A DNA stretch of 64,000 nt. It comes from Erythrobacter sp. 3-20A1M. GTDB lineage: Bacteria > Pseudomonadota > Alphaproteobacteria > Sphingomonadales > Sphingomonadaceae. Each line of letters opens with the position of its first letter. The first letter of the stretch is position 1. Below the pieces are notes generated by a model. That model worked only from the letters and a program-made list of their open reading frames with translations, was not told the DNA's origin and did not search any database. The position numbers and the translations under genes were made by a program. Below are positions 4,761 to 21,176 of this stretch, piece after piece. Where the stretch lies: contig NZ_CP045200.1 in NCBI RefSeq assembly GCF_018636735.1, positions 2,882,001 to 2,946,000 of the forward strand. Reading direction: 5' to 3'.

Positions 4761-4831
4761 GATAATACCGATTGACGCTGGGAAGGATAGAGGTCAAAAC
4801 GTCCTCAACTTTTCCCCATCGCGAGTTCGAC

Positions 4832-6091
4832 ATGCAAGCCACAATCGACGGATCCGAAGCGCTGACAAGAGCGCGAGAGATATTCACCCAGAAGGAGCTC
4901 TCTGCGCTGATCCATCGCTCTGCAAAACAGATCGGACGATGGGAAAAGGCTGGACGCGCTCCGCCGGAATTCGTCCCACTTCTGAAGTCGGTCATTGAAG
5001 GGCGTTCGCCTGTTGCGCGGCCGGAGGATAGTGATTTCACGTTCATCGACCTGTTCGCGGGCATTGGAGGGATCCGCATCGGATTTGAGCAGGCCGGTGG
5101 CCGTTGCGTATTCACCAGTGAATGGGACAGCTACGCTCAGAAGACCTACGCCGAGAATTTCGCGGACGATCACGACATCGCTGGCGACATTACCCAGATC
5201 GATGCCGATGAGATCCCGGACCACGACGTGCTTCTGGCTGGTTTCCCCTGTCAGCCGTTCAGCCTAGCGGGCGTGTCGAAGAAGAACGCACTCGGCAAGC
5301 CGCATGGTTTCGAGTGCACGACGCAGGGCACCCTTTTCTTCGATGTGCAGAGGATCATAGCGGCCAAACGTCCGAAGGCTTTCCTCCTCGAGAACGTGAA
5401 GAACCTCGTCAGCCACGACAAGGGTAACACCTTCCGTGTCATCATGGATGTGCTGGAGAACAAGCTCGGTTATGTTGTGCGGCCCCACGTCGTAGACGGC
5501 AAACGGTTCGTTCCGCAGCATCGTCAGCGGATCCTGCTTGTCGGCTTTCAGAAGGATGTCGGCTTCGACTGGGACGAAGTGATCGCGCGTATGCCGGAGG
5601 TTGCCGATGGACCGAAGCTCGCCTCGATCCTCCACCGCGAAACCGGAAGTGAGCCGGATGTCGATGGCGGTCGCTACCTCGAGCCCAGCGGCCGCGTTCT
5701 CAAAAAATACACGCTGACTGACCGCCTCTGGCAGTATCTTCAGGGATATGCGGAAAAGCACCGGCTCGCTGGGAATGGGTTCGGCTGCAGTGTCGTAGGC
5801 CCGCAGGACACGAGCAGAACGCTGTCGGCACGATACTACAAGGATGGCTCGGAAATCCTGATCAGCCGGGGCAAGGGTCGAAATCCGCGACGGCTAACTC
5901 CTCGAGAGTGCGCACGCCTGATGGGCTATCCGGATACCTTCCGGATCCCGGTATCCGACACGCGGGCATACAAGCAGTTCGGAAACTCGGTCGTCGTTCC
6001 GATGATGGCGGAGGTGGCCCGGGCGATGAAGCCTGGTATCATGCATCTTACGAAGGACGAACCGATCCAGTTCGAACTGGCGCAGTCCTGA
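4832..6091 (+). CDS. DNA (cytosine-5) methyltransferase, EcoRII/Dcm-like
   Basis: From ATG 4832 the product has 419 residues (a TTG at 4772 would add 20). Residues about 15-55 form a helix-turn-helix-like segment. The methyltransferase core follows: F-I-D-L-F-A-G-I-G-G (SAM binding) near 71, the catalytic P-C-Q-P-F-S near 139 with the nucleophilic Cys, E-N-V near 187, the Q-x-R-x-R motif, and F-G-N-S-V near the C-terminus. All ten-motif landmarks are in standard order. It is followed directly by Vsr and an EcoRII-type endonuclease gene, so the target is probably the inner cytosine of CCWGG or a close relative. It protects host DNA from the partner nuclease. Confidence 0.9.
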   Translation: MQATIDGSEALTRAREIFTQKELSALIHRSAKQIGRWEKAGRAPPEFVPLLKSVIEGRSPVARPEDSDFTFIDLFAGIGGIRIGFEQAGGRCVFTSEWDSYAQKTYAENFADDHDIAGDITQIDADEIPDHDVLLAGFPCQPFSLAGVSKKNALGKPHGFECTTQGTLFFDVQRIIAAKRPKAFLLENVKNLVSHDKGNTFRVIMDVLENKLGYVVRPHVVDGKRFVPQHRQRILLVGFQKDVGFDWDEVIARMPEVADGPKLASILHRETGSEPDVDGGRYLEPSGRVLKKYTLTDRLWQYLQGYAEKHRLAGNGFGCSVVGPQDTSRTLSARYYKDGSEILISRGKGRNPRRLTPRECARLMGYPDTFRIPVSDTRAYKQFGNSVVVPMMAEVARAMKPGIMHLTKDEPIQFELAQS

Positions 6092-6094
6092 CCT

Positions 6095-6544
6095 GTGGCC
6101 GACGTCGTCGACAAGGCGACGCGCAGCCGGATGATGGCGGGTATCCGAGGCAAGGATACCAAGATCGAGGTCGCGGTCCGGAAGGCTCTCCACGCCCGGG
6201 GTTTCCGTTACCGGACCGACGTGCGATCGCTTCCCGGCCGTCCCGACATCGTCTTGGCACGATGGAATGCCGTGGTCTTCGTTCATGGCTGCTTCTGGCA
6301 TGCACACGATTGCGGCCTGTGCCGCATTCCGGCGACCAGGCCTGACTTCTGGCGTTCGAAGCTGGATGCGAATGTCGCGCGGGATCGGAAGAACACGGAA
6401 GCCTTGCTGCGGTCCAGTTGGCGCGTAGCGATCGTATGGGAATGCGCCTTGCGTGGCCGGGGAGTTGAAGGTCTAACCCGGGTTGCGGATCGACTCGAAG
6501 ACTGGATCCGGGGAGATGGCAACATGATCGAAATTCGCGGATGA
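6095..6544 (+). CDS. vsr: Vsr very-short-patch repair endonuclease
   Basis: This 149-residue protein has the full Vsr pattern: an N-terminal R-S-x-M-M-A-G-I-R-G-K-D-T-K-I-E helix, then F-R-Y-R-T-D...L-P-G-R-P-D-I-V (the nuclease core), F-V-H-G-C-F-W-H-x-H-x-C, and a final W-R-V-A-I-V-W-E-C. Vsr nicks 5' of the mismatched T in T:G mismatches produced when 5-methylcytosine deaminates, preventing mutation at methylated sites. The start is 3 bp after the methyltransferase stop; the end overlaps the endonuclease start by 4 bases (ATGA), so the three genes form one operon. The length matches the family. Confidence 0.93.
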   Translation: MADVVDKATRSRMMAGIRGKDTKIEVAVRKALHARGFRYRTDVRSLPGRPDIVLARWNAVVFVHGCFWHAHDCGLCRIPATRPDFWRSKLDANVARDRKNTEALLRSSWRVAIVWECALRGRGVEGLTRVADRLEDWIRGDGNMIEIRG

Positions 6545-7761
6545 AGAGCGGATCGCTGTCGGAATACTTCCAGCATGTCGCATGGAAGCCGCTATCCGCC
6601 GTAGATGCCGAGGCACACCGGTCGCACCAGCACGAGTTCGGCGGCGTGGGCAAACTGAGGGCCATCCTCGGCGATGACGATCGCAACGAGATCCCCACAA
6701 CCTTCATCTACCTGAACGACGACGATCCTGAGCCTCTGCAAGAGGTCCGATGGCTCAGTTGGTATGACACGCGCCGAAAGCAGCCGCATCGCTCAGCCGA
6801 ATACAGGCTCTATTTCCCGGACAACGTCGTCACGGACAATGCAGCCGAAGGCGACCTGCTGATCATCGGCGTCCGGCCTGATGACACCCTGATGGCCATC
6901 ATCGCCGAGGGTGGGTCGACCATCGAGCAACAGCTCCTATGGTTATTCGGCGCGAACGATCTCCTGCATCCGGGCTTCTCGGTAAAAGGTGAGATTGAGG
7001 CCGACCAGACGCGGCTGGAATTCGCCTCGCGCTACATTCTCGAACAGCTCGGTGTCGAGATCGAGGAAGAGGCGCCTAGCTTCCTAGAGGCGATGCTCGA
7101 TAGGTTCGACGGAAAGTTTCCGAGCACGCGCGATTTCTCATCCTATGCGCGGGAGACCCTCGGCGATATCGATTTAGCGGCCGATCCTGACGAAGCGGTC
7201 ATCGTGCTGATGGAAAGGGAGGAGATCCTTTTCCGAACCTTGGAGCGGCATCTGATCGGTGACCGCCTGCAAGCCGGGTTCGACGAAGTGGACGACTTCA
7301 TCAAGTTCAGCTTGTCGGTCCAGAACAGGCGCAAGTCGCGGGCTGGGTCGGCGCTGGAGAACCATCTCGAATGGCTCTTCGGACGGCTGCAGCTCCGGGC
7401 CGATCGGACGCCTGTCACCGAGGGAAAGGCGAAACCGGACTTCCTGTTTCCCGGGACCTCCGCCTATGCCGACCCGACTTTTCCGGTGGAGCTCCTTACG
7501 ATGCTGGGAGTGAAGTCGAGCTGCAAGGATCGCTGGCGACAGGTTCTGGCCGAAGCCGACCGCATCGACGACAAGCACCTACTAACTCTGGAGCCGTCCA
7601 TCAGCGGAGCTCAAACCGATGAGATGCAGCAGCGTCGTCTGCAGCTCGTGCTTCCACGGCGGCTACATCAGACCTATTCGACTAAGCAGCAGGATTGGCT
7701 CATGTCCGTAAACCAGCTGGTCGATATCGTTCGCGAGCGGCAGGATGCCGCCGGGTTGTAA
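6541..7761 (+). CDS. EcoRII-type restriction endonuclease
   Basis: The protein has 406 residues, almost the same length as R.EcoRII as I recall it (404). The C-terminal EcoRII-C domain is clear: S-R-A-G-S-A-L-E-N-H-L-E-W-L-F, then K-P-D-F-L-F-P-G, and G-V-K-S-S-C-K-D-R-W. The spacing D-(25)-K-(4)-K-(9)-E reproduces the catalytic residues known for EcoRII (D299, K324, K328, E337). The N-terminal ~160 residues would be the effector-binding domain, which in EcoRII makes cleavage depend on a second site. It overlaps vsr by 4 bases. Expected recognition is CCWGG or a related site; this is family inference, not seen in sequence. Confidence 0.9.
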   Translation: MKSGSLSEYFQHVAWKPLSAVDAEAHRSHQHEFGGVGKLRAILGDDDRNEIPTTFIYLNDDDPEPLQEVRWLSWYDTRRKQPHRSAEYRLYFPDNVVTDNAAEGDLLIIGVRPDDTLMAIIAEGGSTIEQQLLWLFGANDLLHPGFSVKGEIEADQTRLEFASRYILEQLGVEIEEEAPSFLEAMLDRFDGKFPSTRDFSSYARETLGDIDLAADPDEAVIVLMEREEILFRTLERHLIGDRLQAGFDEVDDFIKFSLSVQNRRKSRAGSALENHLEWLFGRLQLRADRTPVTEGKAKPDFLFPGTSAYADPTFPVELLTMLGVKSSCKDRWRQVLAEADRIDDKHLLTLEPSISGAQTDEMQQRRLQLVLPRRLHQTYSTKQQDWLMSVNQLVDIVRERQDAAGL

Positions 7762-8975: not shown

Positions 8976-9054
8976 CGGATGAAATCAGCTAAAGGATTGC
9001 ACCCCCGCAAATGAGAGGCGACGGTCAAAACCGACGCTATATCAAGGGGAAAGG

Positions 9055-9135
9055 TGGTGGACGCACTAGGGCTCGAACCTAGGACCCGCTGATTAAGAGT
9101 CAGCTGCTCGACGGCAGCTTTACCGATTCGTCACC
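9055..9135 (-). tRNA. tRNA-Lys(CTT)-like sequence, probably a 3' remnant with a replaced 5' part
   Basis: Reading the minus strand, the 3' portion (9110 down to 9055) has an intact anticodon arm with loop CTCTTAA (anticodon CTT), a 5-nt variable loop, a good T arm with TTCGAGC and an encoded CCA. The 5' part (9135-9111) does not fit: its acceptor bases do not pair with the 3' acceptor strand and the region is about 5 nt too long. This is what remains when an element attaches at a tRNA 3' end. It lies just beyond the 3' end of the integrase gene. A functional tRNA is possible but unlikely. Confidence 0.5.
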
Positions 9136-9173
9136 TGAAGAGGACGATCAACAATCGGCCGAGCCCTTGACCC

Positions 9174-11282
9174 TCAGGCTACGATCTTCGGCCTTCCTCT
9201 GCGTGCACCGTGGCGCTGGCGATCCAGAGGACGCAACCGCAACTGTCTTGGTTCGATATGCGCGGTCAGAAACGAAAGATGCTGGAGGGCGGCGAGTTTA
9301 TCCTCCAATTCGGCCTCTTCATCATAGGTCTGCTCAGTCTCAGTCTGTCCTTCATGTCCGATGATGTCATATCGGACACTGTCGGCGACTTTCCCTTTCA
9401 GGATCGTGGTGCACAGACCCCGGTAGCTGTGAACATTTTTGTCGATCCAGGCCCCCTTGTTTCGGTGGCGCCATTCGGTGCCCTCTGGAAACGCCCACGC
9501 GCGCAGCTTTTCGAATACTGACTTCCTAAAGGTGTCGGCAAAGCTTGTGGCTTTCGGAGCCTTCATTTCCGGAAACAGATATGTGTGACCGAGGTCACGC
9601 ATCGCACGGACATAATCGATGAAGCCAAGGCGAATAAGTTCAGGATGGATGGGAAGCTTGCGGATGGACTGAACATTTTTCAGTTCGCGATCCTCAGTGT
9701 AATCGATCTGCATATATGGGATCGGATCATCTTCATGCACGTCCGCCAGCGGCAGTCCGGCGAGTTCTGAACTCCGGCCACCATAGAGCGGCAGCATTAT
9801 TGGTAGGTAATACCAGGCGTCGTGAAAGATCTGGTCGCCGGCGCTCAGGCGATCGTCCAGGCTTGATGAACCGGACCAAATCGGAGCGGACAGGATGTGG
9901 CGAACCTCTTCCTTGGTCCAATTCGCCCGCAGATCGCGCTTGCGCTTCGCTTTCCGCCCGCCATTCTTCGTCAGCGTTTTGCGGGCCAATTTGAAATTGA
10001 GAGGCTCCGCTGTCTTATGGCGACCGCCCTCCGCGCTTGCGCTAAATTCGATGACCTTCCCAATCCAGGTCAGATGCTTGTTCATCGTTTTCTGGCTGAT
10101 ACCGACTTCGGACGCGGGCATTTCTTTCGCCCGCTCTAAACTGGCTGGGAAGCCATGCGCGCGTTCGGCAGCGGTGCGACCCCAACGATTAGGTAGAGCC
10201 CGGCATAACGCCTTGAATTCCACTACACTTTCTTGATCGATGTCTTCAATCTTGATGTTCCCGCCGGCAGCGAAGTCGAACATCGCGATAGCTGTCCGAA
10301 CCTGCTTGATGGTGTCCGGGCTCCAGCCATCTTCGTATAAAGCCGCCGCGATGCAATCTTCCGCGGCTGTTTTCAGCAGCTTGGTATTGGCAACCTCGGC
10401 CTTTGAGCGCTGAGCAGGAGCCTTGGTTTCGGCAGCGAAATCAGCTGTTTTGGGCGAAGCTTTTTGGGCGTATTCTTTTTGCGGCTCTCTACCGGCCTTT
10501 TCATAAAAAGCGGATGTTTCAACCGGTTCGGGCGCAGTCGCTGTCGACTCAGCAGCATGCGCCTCATCGTAAGTCTCTTGCTCATCTGGTTCACTGATTG
10601 CAGGTTTGCGTATCTCATAGGCGAGGGGGGAATCGTCTCGAATTGCCTCGTCAATCCAATCTCGGAAATCGAACCCGCTATCCGGCAATTGTCGTGAAGC
10701 CTCCCGGCAAGCAGCCGCTCGCGCCTCATAGATCAGGCGCTGCAGCTTTTCGAGGTTTGAGCGAGTCGGGGTAATTCCGAAGCTGGAGGCGTAATCGTCG
10801 ATTTGACGCTTCGATACTTCGATCTGTCCCCGGCGCTCATGGCACAACATTGCGACGCACGATGCATCGTTCGCAGACCAGCCTTGCGCTAGGAGATCGT
10901 CGAAGTGATCTGGACTAAAATCGGCATCAATTCCGCGACGGGCGCGGATGTCCCAGAATTCCGCGAAGACTCGATTAACGCGCGTGTCCTCGGCCGGATC
11001 GCCGCCTCCTCCGATCTGATCTGTCAAGATACGGTTCAATTGGACTCGCAGCGCGTCCTTGAACACACCCTTCATTTGATCAGGACGGATCGCTAATCCA
11101 ACACTATCATACGACATGACTAAGTTCCTCGCCTGAACCTCCAGACGAGCCATAATATCACACGCAGTTCTATAGTTGCCAGTGCAAAGTGAGAACGAAA
11201 CAGAAACGGGTGTTCCGGCAAGGGTGAATTTGCGGCGCCAGTGATAGGATCCACCGCGAAGGCGAAGATTGGTAGTCGTCAT
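9174..11282 (-). CDS. Tyrosine recombinase (integrase), DUF6538-type
   Basis: From ATG 11282 (M-T-T-T-N-L) the protein has 702 residues; a longer frame to 11366 exists but this start fits the family N-terminus (R-L-R-G-G-S-Y-H-W-R-R-K-F, DUF6538-like). The middle is a long, charged, low-complexity spacer, then a SAM-like core-binding domain. The C-terminal catalytic domain shows the tyrosine recombinase set: R in Y-G-G-R-S-S-E-L, H-S-Y-R-G, G-H-E-G and the nucleophile in T-E-Q-T-Y-D. It starts about 100 bp from the 47-bp tRNA-Pro repeat at 11380, the normal place for an integrase at its attachment site. It probably inserts and excises the element at tRNA-Pro. Confidence 0.88.
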   Translation of the reverse strand: MTTTNLRLRGGSYHWRRKFTLAGTPVSVSFSLCTGNYRTACDIMARLEVQARNLVMSYDSVGLAIRPDQMKGVFKDALRVQLNRILTDQIGGGGDPAEDTRVNRVFAEFWDIRARRGIDADFSPDHFDDLLAQGWSANDASCVAMLCHERRGQIEVSKRQIDDYASSFGITPTRSNLEKLQRLIYEARAAACREASRQLPDSGFDFRDWIDEAIRDDSPLAYEIRKPAISEPDEQETYDEAHAAESTATAPEPVETSAFYEKAGREPQKEYAQKASPKTADFAAETKAPAQRSKAEVANTKLLKTAAEDCIAAALYEDGWSPDTIKQVRTAIAMFDFAAGGNIKIEDIDQESVVEFKALCRALPNRWGRTAAERAHGFPASLERAKEMPASEVGISQKTMNKHLTWIGKVIEFSASAEGGRHKTAEPLNFKLARKTLTKNGGRKAKRKRDLRANWTKEEVRHILSAPIWSGSSSLDDRLSAGDQIFHDAWYYLPIMLPLYGGRSSELAGLPLADVHEDDPIPYMQIDYTEDRELKNVQSIRKLPIHPELIRLGFIDYVRAMRDLGHTYLFPEMKAPKATSFADTFRKSVFEKLRAWAFPEGTEWRHRNKGAWIDKNVHSYRGLCTTILKGKVADSVRYDIIGHEGQTETEQTYDEEAELEDKLAALQHLSFLTAHIEPRQLRLRPLDRQRHGARRGRPKIVA

Positions 11283-11379
11283 CGAATGCGCTCCCCATGG
11301 GAACAGCGATGGGGACAGGTTTGGGGACAAACCTGCCCAACCGCCGAGCGGACCGCGTGTTTTCAATGACTTAGCGTTA

Positions 11380-11426
11380 ATTGGTCGGGGAGAGAGGATT
11401 CGAACCTCCGGCCCCTGCCTCCCGAA
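11380..11426. repeat. att repeat, copy 1 (3' part of tRNA-Pro)
   Basis: This 47-bp sequence is identical to 13638-13684, which covers tRNA-Pro from the anticodon loop to two bases past CCA. Identity begins exactly in the anticodon loop, a common crossover region for tyrosine integrases. A short inverted repeat (ATGCGTG / CACGCAT, about 11430-11453) follows immediately and could be a hairpin or binding site. Confidence 0.85.
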
Positions 11427-11596
11427 ATTTATGCGTGGTCACAAACACACGCATTTCTGCGCTCGTTGGGTCGGCAAAAGTGCCGAAAGTGCGCGTAAAA
11501 TTGGGCAATTGAGGGTCAATTCACCCAAGTTTCACCCAAGAAATTACGCGGCGGAGAGCACCTCTGATTGCATTGCATGCGTGTCAATCACCATGT

Positions 11597-12871
11597 CTAA
11601 GCTAACAATGAAACGCGAGTTGCGCGACGCCTCATCCGTCCGTCACCCGCAGCCATTTTTTCGAGGAAATACCGTCTGAAGTCGTGCAGCTCGCGATCGA
11701 CCTGACTGTCCAATTCCGAAAATTTTTGAGGCGCGTTGGAACACGAAAATGATGCGCGCCAACCCATCAGGGTATTGTCGATCGCTACCAACGTCTGCGC
11801 ATAACATCGCTCGTTCGAGCGTAGCTCCTCACCTCTCATTGATTTGGCAATCGATCGCTTTCCCGCGCTGATTAGAAGACGAATTTGATCAAGCAGTCTT
11901 TTACACGATTTTGCTGATGGCGGGTATTCACCAGGAATAAGATCGTAGCCCAAGAAAGAATGAGGTTCGCCGACCACGCCCGCAAACGCCTTGCCCGGAT
12001 CATGTGCGGGATTGTAAATGTCCATGCCAAGACCTCGCAAAATTTTACTCGCAGAGGCCAAGGCTTTTAATACGGAAGACTGGGACCTACCGATCAATAG
12101 GAAGTCGTCGATATATCTAATACAGGTAATACCCCTACCGTTCATCTCCCTATCGAATTGTTCAAGAACAATGTTGCCTGCCAGTGCCGACAACGGACAT
12201 CCTTGGGCCACGCCGTCACGGCCGGTAGGAAAGAGTTTGAGATCGTCGGGCGCCAACTGGTCGGCATTCTTCAGTTCGACCGCAAGAGCTTTGGCCACGA
12301 GCTGCACGAATGGCTCGTCAAGTCCGTCTCTCCTTAGGAAAGCGATAACATCCTCGCGAGAAATTTTGGTGAAAAAGCCTTTGATGTCACTTCCGGCTAC
12401 GTAGCAGTCCCCAGCCTCTACGCGCTCTTGAAAGATTCTTATTGCAGCATCGACGCCTCGACCTGGAATGCCGCCGATAGAAGTGGGGGTTGCTAAGACG
12501 CGCTGTATTCCTGTCGACGATGTCGTAGCCTGCAAGACATCCAAAATCGCTCTTTGAACGATCCGATCAGGAAGTGGGGCAACGACTATTGGCCGTTTGC
12601 CCGTCTTATGAGGACCTTTCGGCGGAAGCGCACCGTGTGCTTTTGAAAACTTATAGCCTTCTAAGAGCTGTCGCTGGATCTTGCGAAGGTTAGCCGGGAG
12701 ATATTCTCCGAACTCGCGAGCCCTGCGTTTCGTTAAAGGCTGCTGGGAGGTCTCTGCATTTCGCCGAATCGCGTGCCAAGCGCCGATCAGGTTCTCCATG
12801 CGACGAACTTCTAGGCACAAATCCTTCATGCCCGCATCAAACCTAGCTTGGGACCTGCCGACAAAGATCAC
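11597..12871 (-). CDS. Reverse transcriptase, unassigned/defence-type (candidate DRT family)
   Basis: The 424-residue frame begins at GTG 12871; ATG 12829 and ATG 12799 are alternatives, none with a strong ribosome site. Reverse transcriptase motifs are in order: G-K-R-P-I-V-V-A-P-L near 91, S-D-I-K-G-F-F near 161 (first catalytic Asp), Q-G-C-P-L-S near 223, Y-I-D-D at 253-256, and F-L-G-Y near 306. A C-terminal helical thumb-like region follows. No endonuclease, protease or other fused domain is present. It lacks the diversity-generating-retroelement QG-region signature and retron landmarks. The size, single-gene layout and structured leader resemble stand-alone defence RTs such as DRT2; the exact class cannot be set by eye. 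Confidence 0.85.
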   Translation of the reverse strand: MIFVGRSQARFDAGMKDLCLEVRRMENLIGAWHAIRRNAETSQQPLTKRRAREFGEYLPANLRKIQRQLLEGYKFSKAHGALPPKGPHKTGKRPIVVAPLPDRIVQRAILDVLQATTSSTGIQRVLATPTSIGGIPGRGVDAAIRIFQERVEAGDCYVAGSDIKGFFTKISREDVIAFLRRDGLDEPFVQLVAKALAVELKNADQLAPDDLKLFPTGRDGVAQGCPLSALAGNIVLEQFDREMNGRGITCIRYIDDFLLIGRSQSSVLKALASASKILRGLGMDIYNPAHDPGKAFAGVVGEPHSFLGYDLIPGEYPPSAKSCKRLLDQIRLLISAGKRSIAKSMRGEELRSNERCYAQTLVAIDNTLMGWRASFSCSNAPQKFSELDSQVDRELHDFRRYFLEKMAAGDGRMRRRATRVSLLA

Positions 12872-12884
12872 CCCGGCCAGATTT

Positions 12885-13013
12885 GTTCTTCAGTCGCAGG
12901 CCCGGGCAACGATGTTGCCGAACCCTCGACCGACACGGACAGGCTTACCGCCCATCCATGATCCCCGCTTCTCGGACCTGCACCATCGCATGGCCAGGCG
13001 AGATTGAGAGACA
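12885..13013. repeat. 129-bp direct repeat, inner copy (next to RT)
   Basis: Base-for-base identical to 13238-13366, same orientation, offset 353 bp. It ends 14 bp before the RT GTG start. It contains a perfect hairpin at 12905-12919 (GGCAAC-GAT-GTTGCC). The unit is 43 x 3 nt. Perfect identity over 129 bp in a non-coding region means recent duplication, active homogenisation or strong constraint. Flanking sequences of the two copies are not similar. Confidence 0.95.
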
Positions 13014-13237
13014 TGAGCGAAGCGATCAGAAAGCACATCATCGAGACTCCATGTCGCGTCGCTGAAACTCCGCGACCGCGCGATTTAGAATGACCCCCGA
13101 AAAGCGTAGCAGCTTTTTCAGCGCGTCAACCCCTTGCACGGCTCGGCGCCCCGTCCGACATTTATGTTCGGAGACTGATCGGCAGGCCGTTTCACACGGG
13201 ACACCAGTCTCGCACATATCAACCGGGGCGTGCGGGC

Positions 13238-13366
13238 GTTCTTCAGTCGCAGGCCCGGGCAACGATGTTGCCGAACCCTCGACCGACACGGACAGGCTTA
13301 CCGCCCATCCATGATCCCCGCTTCTCGGACCTGCACCATCGCATGGCCAGGCGAGATTGAGAGACA
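13238..13366. repeat. 129-bp direct repeat, outer copy
   Basis: Identical to 12885-13013. The hairpin GGCAAC-GAT-GTTGCC is at 13258-13272. The copy ends 6 bp from a perfect 22-bp palindrome at 13373-13394, so on the RT strand it would be the first element transcribed from a promoter at the palindrome. Confidence 0.95.
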
Positions 13367-13372
13367 AGTCAG

Positions 13373-13394
13373 CGTTCTCGCTATAGCGAGAACG
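13373..13394. promoter_or_regulatory. 22-bp perfect palindrome, candidate operator or promoter of the RT leader
   Basis: CGTTCTCGCTATAGCGAGAACG is a perfect palindrome without spacer. On the minus strand its centre provides a TATAGC box, with TTGTTC 15 nt upstream (complement of 13401-13406) as a weak -35. This would be a suboptimal promoter firing toward the repeats and the RT, with the palindrome placed to bind a dimeric repressor. It could instead be an RNA hairpin. Confidence 0.4.
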
Positions 13395-13637
13395 AGCGGG
13401 GAACAAAAGGCCCAACCTGATTTGTCCCCGAAGATCTAGGAAGATGTCACGAAGTCCAAAATGCGATGGCTAGCCACTGTCTCATACGCAGGAGCAAGGC
13501 AGTGCTCGGACTTAACCTACTGATTTTGAGGCTTTCATGCATGTCGTCCAACATGCGGAGTAGATCGCAAACGTCCGATCTGCACCCAAAATTCACCCAA
13601 GAAAATTCTCGGGTATCACACGTAAGTGCTTGAAATC

Positions 13638-13684
13638 ATTGGTCGGGGAGAGAGGATTCGAACCTCCGGCCCCTGCCTCCCGAA
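13638..13684. repeat. att repeat, copy 2 (inside intact tRNA-Pro)
   Basis: A 47-bp sequence identical to 11380-11426. It covers the tRNA-Pro gene from the anticodon loop to two bases past the encoded CCA, so insertion here leaves the tRNA intact. The motif TTCACCCAAG occurs a short distance inside both ends of the cassette (about 11520-11542 and 13590-13601), as arm-type integrase sites often do. Confidence 0.85.
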
Positions 13685-13716
13685 GACAGTGCTCTACCAG
13701 GCTGAGCTACTCCCCG
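13640..13716 (-). tRNA. tRNA-Pro(CGG)
   Basis: The minus strand folds as a full cloverleaf of 77 nt. The acceptor CGGGGAG pairs with CTCCCCG, the D arm has GCTC...GAGC, the anticodon stem CTGTC/GGCAG closes the loop TTCGGGA (anticodon CGG), the T arm has TTCGAATC, and CCA is encoded. It is the integration target of the island on its 3' side and the boundary between accessory and core DNA. Confidence 0.95.
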
Positions 13717-20964: not shown

Positions 20965-21092
20965 AGGAAGTGGCGGGACCACCATGGGTCGTTTGCCGGG
21001 GAAATCCTCTGACGCCTCAACGTCAGGTGGGTGCCGTTTACCCCGGTTCCCCGGACGGACCGGTGTTCCAGGGCAGGGACAGCTCCCTTTGG
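20965..21092 (-). ncRNA. ssrS: Candidate 6S RNA
   Basis: The 256 bp between zapA and the cyclo-ligase gene is the classical 6S RNA locus. On the minus strand a CTATAA box (about 21097-21102) precedes a sequence whose 5' end (CAAAGGGAG) can pair with its 3' end (CTTCCTTG), leaving a GC-rich, partly paired interior as in 6S RNA. zapA itself is followed by a hairpin GATCCT-N5-AGGATC at 21147-21163. The identification rests on location and end pairing; the ends are approximate and the length (about 128 nt) is short for 6S. Confidence 0.45.
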
Positions 21093-21176
21093 ATTGCTTA
21101 TAGCCTCAGGGATGTTCGATCGGCTCGTGCCGGGCAGTCCCGCCGTGATCCTATGTAAGGATCGGGACGGCCGGCC

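Follow-up and report, generated by a model that had tools for sequence, protein, structure and literature searches.

We describe a small genetic cassette in which a reverse transcriptase (RT) resembling the G2L4 enzymes is preceded by a long repeat unit, R1-S-R2, composed of two identical direct repeats (R1 and R2) and a spacer (S) between them. The cassette lies in a 64,000-nt stretch of DNA from Erythrobacter sp. 3-20A1M (the window), part of a 3.1-Mb single-contig genome; coordinates of all features are collected in Table 1. An open reading frame (ORF) crosses the repeats in two halves and, by prediction from the sequence, is complete only in DNA in which units are joined through R. We propose, with what we judge to be an even chance of being right, that the cassette acts as a mobile RT module: its R1-S-R2 RNA would serve as template, and strand transfer between the repeats would assemble its gene. 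The wider proposal falls a little short of an even chance. It holds that a whole RT family uses repeats similar to long terminal repeats (LTRs), together with strand transfer, to build a gene from a scrambled copy, that R-S-R RNA is the native substrate of G2L4 RTs, and that their annealing activity is the transfer step rather than, or besides, a means of break repair.

The repeat unit and its reverse transcriptase

In the window, R1 and R2 are identical over all 129 nt and thereby longer than the attachment (att) repeats that flank the cassette. A preliminary description of this DNA spoke of a single gene with a large non-coding leader. The RT is indeed the sole large gene, but the leader consists of the R1-S-R2 unit, which that description had overlooked, and short open frames cross its 129-nt repeats. 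The suggestion that an RT and a template-like RNA form the cargo is supported.

Nineteen loci with related RTs have enough upstream sequence to be compared, and in 14 of them an R-S-R unit lies directly upstream of the RT. R-S-R loci were found in genomes, in phage-type contigs and on one plasmid. The phage-type contig L089 encodes an RT 62% identical to that of the window, located between terminase-like and portal-like ORFs (judged by eye), and carries a 133-nt pair with a period of 353 nt, the same as in the window. A search with the leader DNA matched 3 of 396 genomes, including the source genome itself, and both others, members of the family, carry pairs with a period of 350 nt. Protein searches added the R-S-R loci L101, L102, L103, L106, L107, L112, L114, L138, L140 and L141. 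Over the 14 loci R is 110-138 nt long, L103 with 78 plus 28 nt being the exception; R1 and R2 are 100% identical in ten loci, 99% in three and 96% in L114, and the period ranges from 346 to 382 nt, divisible by three in none of them. No other pairs of at least 70 nt, with more than 97% identity and 200-500 nt spacing, were listed outside such RTs in the fetched loci, which total 663,986 bases and are partly redundant. Set apart from the 19 were L137 and L139, whose contigs start near the RT, L105 at a contig end, the distant RTs of L005, L006, L007, L008 and L142, and the plasmid RTs taken for comparison (L133, L134 and L135). The 16-nt motif ATGCAAAAACGTGCCA occurs in eight stretches of IMG/VR; only one of them (L122) has a related RT with R-S-R, and the motif alone is therefore unspecific there. 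Its 14-nt core is present as a single occurrence in 4 of 11 chosen genomes, the reversed control giving 0. A search of IMG/VR with the L106 RT alone returned none. One related locus, L132 (2669-3994 and the RT downstream), has a stop codon in the RT, one R-like stretch and a large unrelated tandem array upstream.

The window RT matches Pfam RVT_1 and has the active site IRYIDDFL (YIDD). When it was compared with the PDB by phmmer, the best matches were two G2L4 RTs, 9d5x (E=3e-67) and 9d4s (E=3.6e-67); the next chain outside G2L4 was a group II intron RT (1.8e-13), and Drt2 appeared at 4e-4. Similarity to 9d5x spans the full length, and visual inspection of the alignment puts identity at roughly one third of residues. 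A tree of 25 rows unites the window RT with those of L089, L094 and L095 (100/100), and this clade joins 9d5x, L106, L107, L102 and five others in a group of 13 rows (82/94, drawn open). The RT3a plug region aligns to 9d5x with a gap of one residue, in a sequence alignment to the G2L4 chain only. The position of the acidic plug residue D182 is kept as E, and neither the window RT nor any of its three nearest relatives conserves the plug arginines R190/R191, the positions being mapped by eye. As YIDD is present but the RT3a arginine pair is absent, the enzyme is called G2L4-like, and such it is to judge from its sequence.

Other assignments were considered and rejected. The preliminary description had likened the enzyme to stand-alone RTs of the unassigned/DRT groups; PDB search and tree place it with G2L4 instead, and the named DRT groups were rejected on their profile scores (DRT2, NF041746, 37.9 bits against a cut-off of 390). 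In PADLOC the generic RT profile reached 111 bits and the best named group, UG17, 106.6 bits, and the phmmer score of 230 bits for the G2L4 chain 9d5x is on a scale different from that of these profiles. A retron was rejected (profile St85, 35.5 bits, cut-off 235). A group II intron maturase was rejected too: Rfam revealed no group II intron RNA at the gathering threshold, and TIGR04416 reached 120.9 bits at a cut-off of 300, in agreement with the earlier expectation that the RT stands outside group II introns.

The copies of R are 96-100% alike within a locus, against a mean of 60% between the four nearest loci. Because they are alike within a locus yet diverged between loci, they appear to be kept identical. 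L106, on a Pseudomonas aeruginosa plasmid, and L107 agree in 132/132 positions of R, 235/244 of S and 973/1245 of the RT gene, 193 of the 272 differences in the latter falling on third codon positions; their outer flanks agree at 44% and 36%. Single-sequence folds of the unit beat those of shuffled sequences (z of -2.85, -3.60 and -3.13, with 0, 0 and 1 of 100 shuffles as good). In the four loci of the alpha group, 21 of 95 predicted pairs show double changes and 90.8% of cells pair, for four sequences and a structure derived from the same alignment. Neither value was reached by any of 500 shuffles, and slid partners give 2-8 such pairs. A second group has double changes in 23 of 96 pairs, a count that comes without a shuffle control. 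The R-S-R unit looks like a structured RNA, and we regard the case for this as good, if not final.

The split reading frame and competing explanations

All R-S-R loci share one frame whose hydrophobic beginning lies in the 3' part of S and which continues into R2. In R, this frame coincides with the one that leaves R1 for the 5' part of S. When the unit is closed into a circle through R, it has one ORF, of which the chromosome holds the halves in swapped order. From the chosen starts, the chromosomal first half ends after 57-100 amino acids in 13 of the 14 loci and after 150 in L138; the swapped chromosomal gene usually meets a stop less than 100 nt past R2. No conserved start was seen by eye in the second half. 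Over the 44 codons past R1 the joined frame has no stop in any of the 14 loci, against 29 and 44 stops in the other two frames, which are stop-free in 1 and 0 loci; with one locus per clade, the joined frame is stop-free in 7/7 and the others in 1 and 0. Shuffles with an anchored start gave p values of 0.0006-0.13 for each of 11 loci, which are not independent of one another. The frame score of the whole ORF in the alpha group is z=3.26 (0/300), mainly from the S 3' and R parts, and R alone gives z=2.1 (7/500). A hydrophobic segment is present in 12/12 loci scored (mean Kyte-Doolittle value over 15 residues 1.57-2.83), no control frame having been scored. In 11 of 14 loci the start is preceded, at an equal position, by a promoter-like site (P2) with a spacer of 15-16 nt. 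Pfam searches with five R1-S halves gave two weak matches, both under the curated cut-offs. In S of L101, L102, L103, L106, L107, L112, L138, L140 and L141 a run of the form (C/G)AAAAAC was noticed by eye; there the joined ORF is offset by one frame from a short ORF that follows a good ribosome-binding site, and the run could be a slippery site.

In the mechanism that we propose, the leader would be a template RNA with terminal direct repeats, and the G2L4-like RT would copy this R1-S-R2 RNA. On reaching R1, the complementary DNA (cDNA) would move to R2, either on its own template or on a second RNA molecule, in the way that cDNA moves between R regions in retroviruses, and the product of the transfer would be a concatemer or a circle of the R-S unit. 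In such DNA the 3' part of S, R and the 5' part of S would be continuous, with P2 ahead of a whole gene; the joined small gene, with its signal-peptide-like start, would then be driven by P2. We infer the RNA ends, the cDNA, the strand transfer, the expression and the anti-phage role that this scheme implies. In retroviruses, the first cDNA end becomes available for transfer through RNase H activity. At L102 (1483-3183) the G2L4-like RT is fused to an RNase H domain (PF00075, E=3.5e-22), which suits RNA-templated synthesis. A dimeric G2L4 RT that anneals short homologies (PMC12337344) would likewise fit strand transfer. If the proposal is true, this would be a second RT lineage that makes genes unreadable in the genome, by a route akin to retroviral strand transfer. 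G2L4 RTs, known as repair enzymes, would gain a defined RNA partner and possibly a role in defence. A further prediction is that a repeat unit has gone unnoticed where the crystallised G2L4 enzyme is natively encoded; for 9d5x, this locus did not turn up among the sequences searched.

A number of results weigh against gene assembly by strand transfer. R-S-R is missing in 5 of the 19 related loci (L099, L100, L010, L128 and L132), and RNase H was detected in only one (L102) of the 14 RTs with R-S-R scanned with Pfam. The accessible text of PMC12337344 mentions neither R-S-R nor an RNA partner of the G2L4 RT. The anchors of the window and L101 were chosen once the frame was known, and in shuffles without an anchored start most single loci were not significant (p 0.003-0.56). 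Codon tests are equivocal as well: the 5' half of S alone is weak in the alpha group (z=1.21, 59/500) and gives z=-0.45 (337/500) in the second group, where the whole ORF reaches z=1.93 (11/500) with four loci but only z=0.52 (146/500) with three. Differences within the alpha group, by codon position 290, 231 and 269, show no excess at third positions. Because of these tests a purely coding explanation is weakened. The window copy lacks the start codon found in its nearest relative and would begin later (by eye). P2 is intact in the chromosome, and a truncated peptide would therefore arise without the RT. The AlphaFold model of the R1-S half was uninformative (mean pLDDT 43).

The weak codon signal in the 5' half of S, the fold with its covariation and the near-invariance of R and S at the DNA level between L106 and L107 speak for a different account. 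R-S-R would be a structured non-coding RNA (ncRNA), a cofactor or template giving short or repetitive cDNA; the frame would be incidental, or only the S-to-R2 peptide would be made, and the repeats would serve folding or template switching. DRT10, which makes tandem-repeat cDNA from an ncRNA (PMC12632851), also speaks in its favour. It is harder to reconcile with the stop-free frame from R1 into S in all 14 loci, where the other frames have stops, and with the hydrophobic start of that frame in each of the loci scored (again with no control frames), and we consider it possible, if rather unlikely. Long identical direct repeats recombine readily, and homologous recombination between R1 and R2 could yield an R-S circle or tandem copies that restore the gene, the RT being a separate repair enzyme or an annealing helper. 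L128 resembles a deletion product: a single R is left and no matching S is present, the outcome expected of recombination between R1 and R2. The report of G2L4 RT as a strand-annealing end-joining enzyme (PMC12337344) points in the same direction. Against this stand the tie of R-S-R to one RT family, the covarying RNA fold and the RNase H domain on one RT, suited to RNA-templated synthesis; on balance recombination is an unlikely route to the joined gene.

The remaining explanations are given little weight. In a toxin-antitoxin-like module, similar to retrons in outline, the hydrophobic S-to-R2 peptide would be the toxin and R1-S RNA together with the RT would control it. The hydrophobic N-terminal segments, the internal promoter-like site and the location of modules in phage-type contigs and a plasmid island would all suit such a module, but it creates no need for R1 to run into S in the same open frame, and we find it very improbable. 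If the RT were a domesticated G2L4 enzyme of DNA repair and the duplicated leader merely passive, this would agree with the sequence relation to 9d5x and 9d4s; since the duplication, with homogenised copies, recurs over several clades, this account is hardly credible. Gene assembly by strand transfer between R1 and R2 is the reading that we favour.

The cassette, its insertion site and its neighbourhood

The cassette measures 2.2 kb, has one large gene (the RT) and lacks an integrase; its remaining ORFs of at least 80 amino acids are 108-136 amino acids long and overlap the RT, the repeats or the left end. As the preliminary description stated, it is bracketed by perfect 47-nt repeats and the right one lies within an intact transfer RNA (tRNA) gene, tRNA-Pro (CGG). 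The two repeats are 100% identical, there is no third copy in the window at up to 3 mismatches, and 100 shuffles produced 0. A whole-genome search with the repeat DNA found its own place and just two weaker matches (83% and 72%). The description also anticipated a single-copy att site in related genomes, and a 45-nt att core indeed occurs once within the 15 kb taken from each of 9/9 genus relatives. The tRNA-Pro of all nine other genus genomes searched has this ORF, which by eye resembles thymidylate synthase, as its neighbour, as in the window. When the DNA to the left of this tRNA gene in the nine relatives was compared by blastn with the window plus 40 kb leftward, only the att repeat matched, and two proteins from the relatives' left flanks have 31-33% matches in the same region. 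As the left flanks are mostly unlike one another (by eye), the tRNA-Pro site looks like an insertion hot spot. With direct att repeats here and single-copy sites in relatives, the cassette is a real integrated tRNA-Pro element.

Immediately to the left stands an ORF of 730 amino acids which we take, partly from its motifs, to be an integrase. Of 396 genomes from the order, 27 have homologues (E up to 1e-30), the source genome among them; the loci fetched from the 26 others contain a tRNA-Pro (14), tRNA-Gln (5), tRNA-Gly (1) or no tRNA (6). The ORF had no match at E 0.01 in Pfam, NCBIfam, PHROGs and PADLOC, and its best PDB matches had E 0.84 or worse; the label thus rests on tRNA placement and on motifs. 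Three family genomes (L062, L064 and L065) encode homologues of this integrase next to a tRNA-Pro whose 47-nt sequence is identical. To the eye, the DNA outside the left att repeat is similar to the flank of one homologous island. The other end of a 39-kb integrase island may be marked by a partial att copy of 20 nt that lies 27.6 kb to the left of where the window starts (L044). Visual inspection suggests a 3' tRNA-Lys half at window positions 9054-9140, adjoining the 3' end of the integrase gene; ARAGORN makes no call there.

A second repeated motif, CACCCAANWTTCACCCAA, is present at both cassette ends. It was found in 3 of 298 family genomes, twice in this one, with 0 for the control; in one of the other genomes a copy has as neighbours a tRNA-Val and an ORF that matches phage integrase below threshold. 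Its core CACCCAAG is absent from 13 of 15 other integrase loci and present as a single copy in 2. The 10-nt core TTCACCCAAG occurs in the window at chance level (3 matches, shuffle mean 2.2, 38/100 shuffles reaching 3), and of the end-motif forms only the 18-nt one is rare. As the ends carry CACCCAANWTTCACCCAA, the cassette may be served by a recombinase different from that of its neighbour. The preliminary description had the cassette use the neighbour's recombinase, which may also be the case: a tRNA-Pro is present at 14 of the 26 other homologous loci, and the left flank resembles that of one island.

Several modules are located in phage-type contigs. The plasmid island includes a gene annotated as TIR-domain (sub-threshold in Pfam), and at L094 an EcoRI-type methylase and a GmrSD-HNH gene lie just upstream of the module. 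In the window, genes for a Dcm-type methylase, a Vsr nuclease and an EcoRII-C restriction enzyme stand side by side at 4772-7761, left of the integrase. Such company suggests defence against phages, a guess from context. A 6S RNA gene is located further right in the window (20972-21143, minus strand).

Table 1. Positions of features in and around the RT cassette (window coordinates)
Feature	Position	Strand	Basis
Integrase-like ORF, tRNA-Pro-associated family, outside cassette	9174-11366	minus	ORF list, homologue loci
Left 47-bp att repeat	11380-11426	none	repeat search, shuffles
Arm-like motif, left cassette end	11522-11539	none	repeat and motif search
G2L4-like RT, 424 amino acids, YIDD	11597-12871	minus	ORF list, Pfam, PDB search, tree
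Predicted split ORF, N-terminal half: hydrophobic start in S, into R2, 57 amino acids then stop	12868-13041	minus	frame analysis
R2, downstream copy of 129-nt perfect direct repeat	12885-13013	minus	repeat search
S, 224-nt spacer: putative structured RNA, internal promoter-like site, small-ORF start	13014-13237	minus	repeat search, fold, motif
Predicted split ORF, C-terminal half: R1 into S, same R frame	13041-13364	minus	frame analysis
Promoter-like P2 (TTGACG, 15 nt, TACGCT)	13103-13129	minus	consensus match only
R1, upstream copy of 129-nt perfect direct repeat (RT sense)	13238-13366	minus	repeat search
22-nt palindrome just upstream of R1, possible operator	13373-13394	none	by eye; function putative
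Arm-like motif, right cassette end	13583-13600	none	repeat and motif search
Right 47-bp att repeat, 3' part of tRNA-Pro	13638-13684	none	repeat search, tRNA call, shuffles
Intact tRNA-Pro (CGG)	13640-13716	minus	tRNA call, Rfam scan

Comparison with known systems

In its att repeats, tRNA gene target and lack of an integrase the cassette is similar to integrase-less, att-flanked elements of the CIME type, with the difference that here mobility and a helper integrase are only putative. LTR retroelements perform their first strand transfer with a layout of R-U-R type and with RNase H. The R-S-R unit has a comparable layout, and an RT-RNase H fusion exists in one relative (L102). Unlike these elements, the cassette has no integrase, and no gag or tRNA primer site was identified, neither having been searched for; by this evidence it is not a transposon.

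The G2L4 RT of P. aeruginosa is described as an end-joining and break-repair enzyme with strong annealing activity (PMC12337344). The window RT shares with the G2L4 RTs 9d5x and 9d4s its full-length similarity and YIDD, and there is no group II intron RNA at the cassette; it differs from 9d5x in lacking the plug arginines R190/R191. Within the accessible parts of the literature searched, no description of such R-S-R gene assembly was found. In the available passages of PMC5541045 and PMC4244168, which mention G2L4, "direct repeat" denotes CRISPR arrays and LTRs.

DRT10/UG17 is the best named PADLOC group for this RT, and in DRT10 an ncRNA templates tandem-repeat DNA (PMC12632851). DRT10 differs by its SLATT partner and 9-nt repeat (PMC12632851), whereas the cassette has no second large ORF: none besides the RT exceeds 136 amino acids, and Pfam searches with six neighbouring ORFs found no SLATT, no dedicated SLATT profile having been run.

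A parallel in outcome is offered by DRT2, in which cDNA concatemers restore a promoter and create an ORF that the chromosome does not contain (PMC12039810). In both systems the RT stands beside an RNA, and end-to-end cDNA would create a chromosomally absent ORF, in our case as read from the DNA alone. The neo gene of DRT2 has repeats of about 120 nt that are divisible by three, a nearly endless ORF and a promoter rebuilt at the junction (PMC12039810). In the cassette and its relatives, by contrast, units measure 346-382 nt and hold a bounded ORF; with none of the 14 periods divisible by three, we rejected an endless ORF of the neo kind. The promoter-like site is intact, long direct repeats are already present in the DNA, and the RT belongs to another family. 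If the proposed mechanism holds, the cassette would represent a variant of RT-made genes and a new way of switching on a gene.

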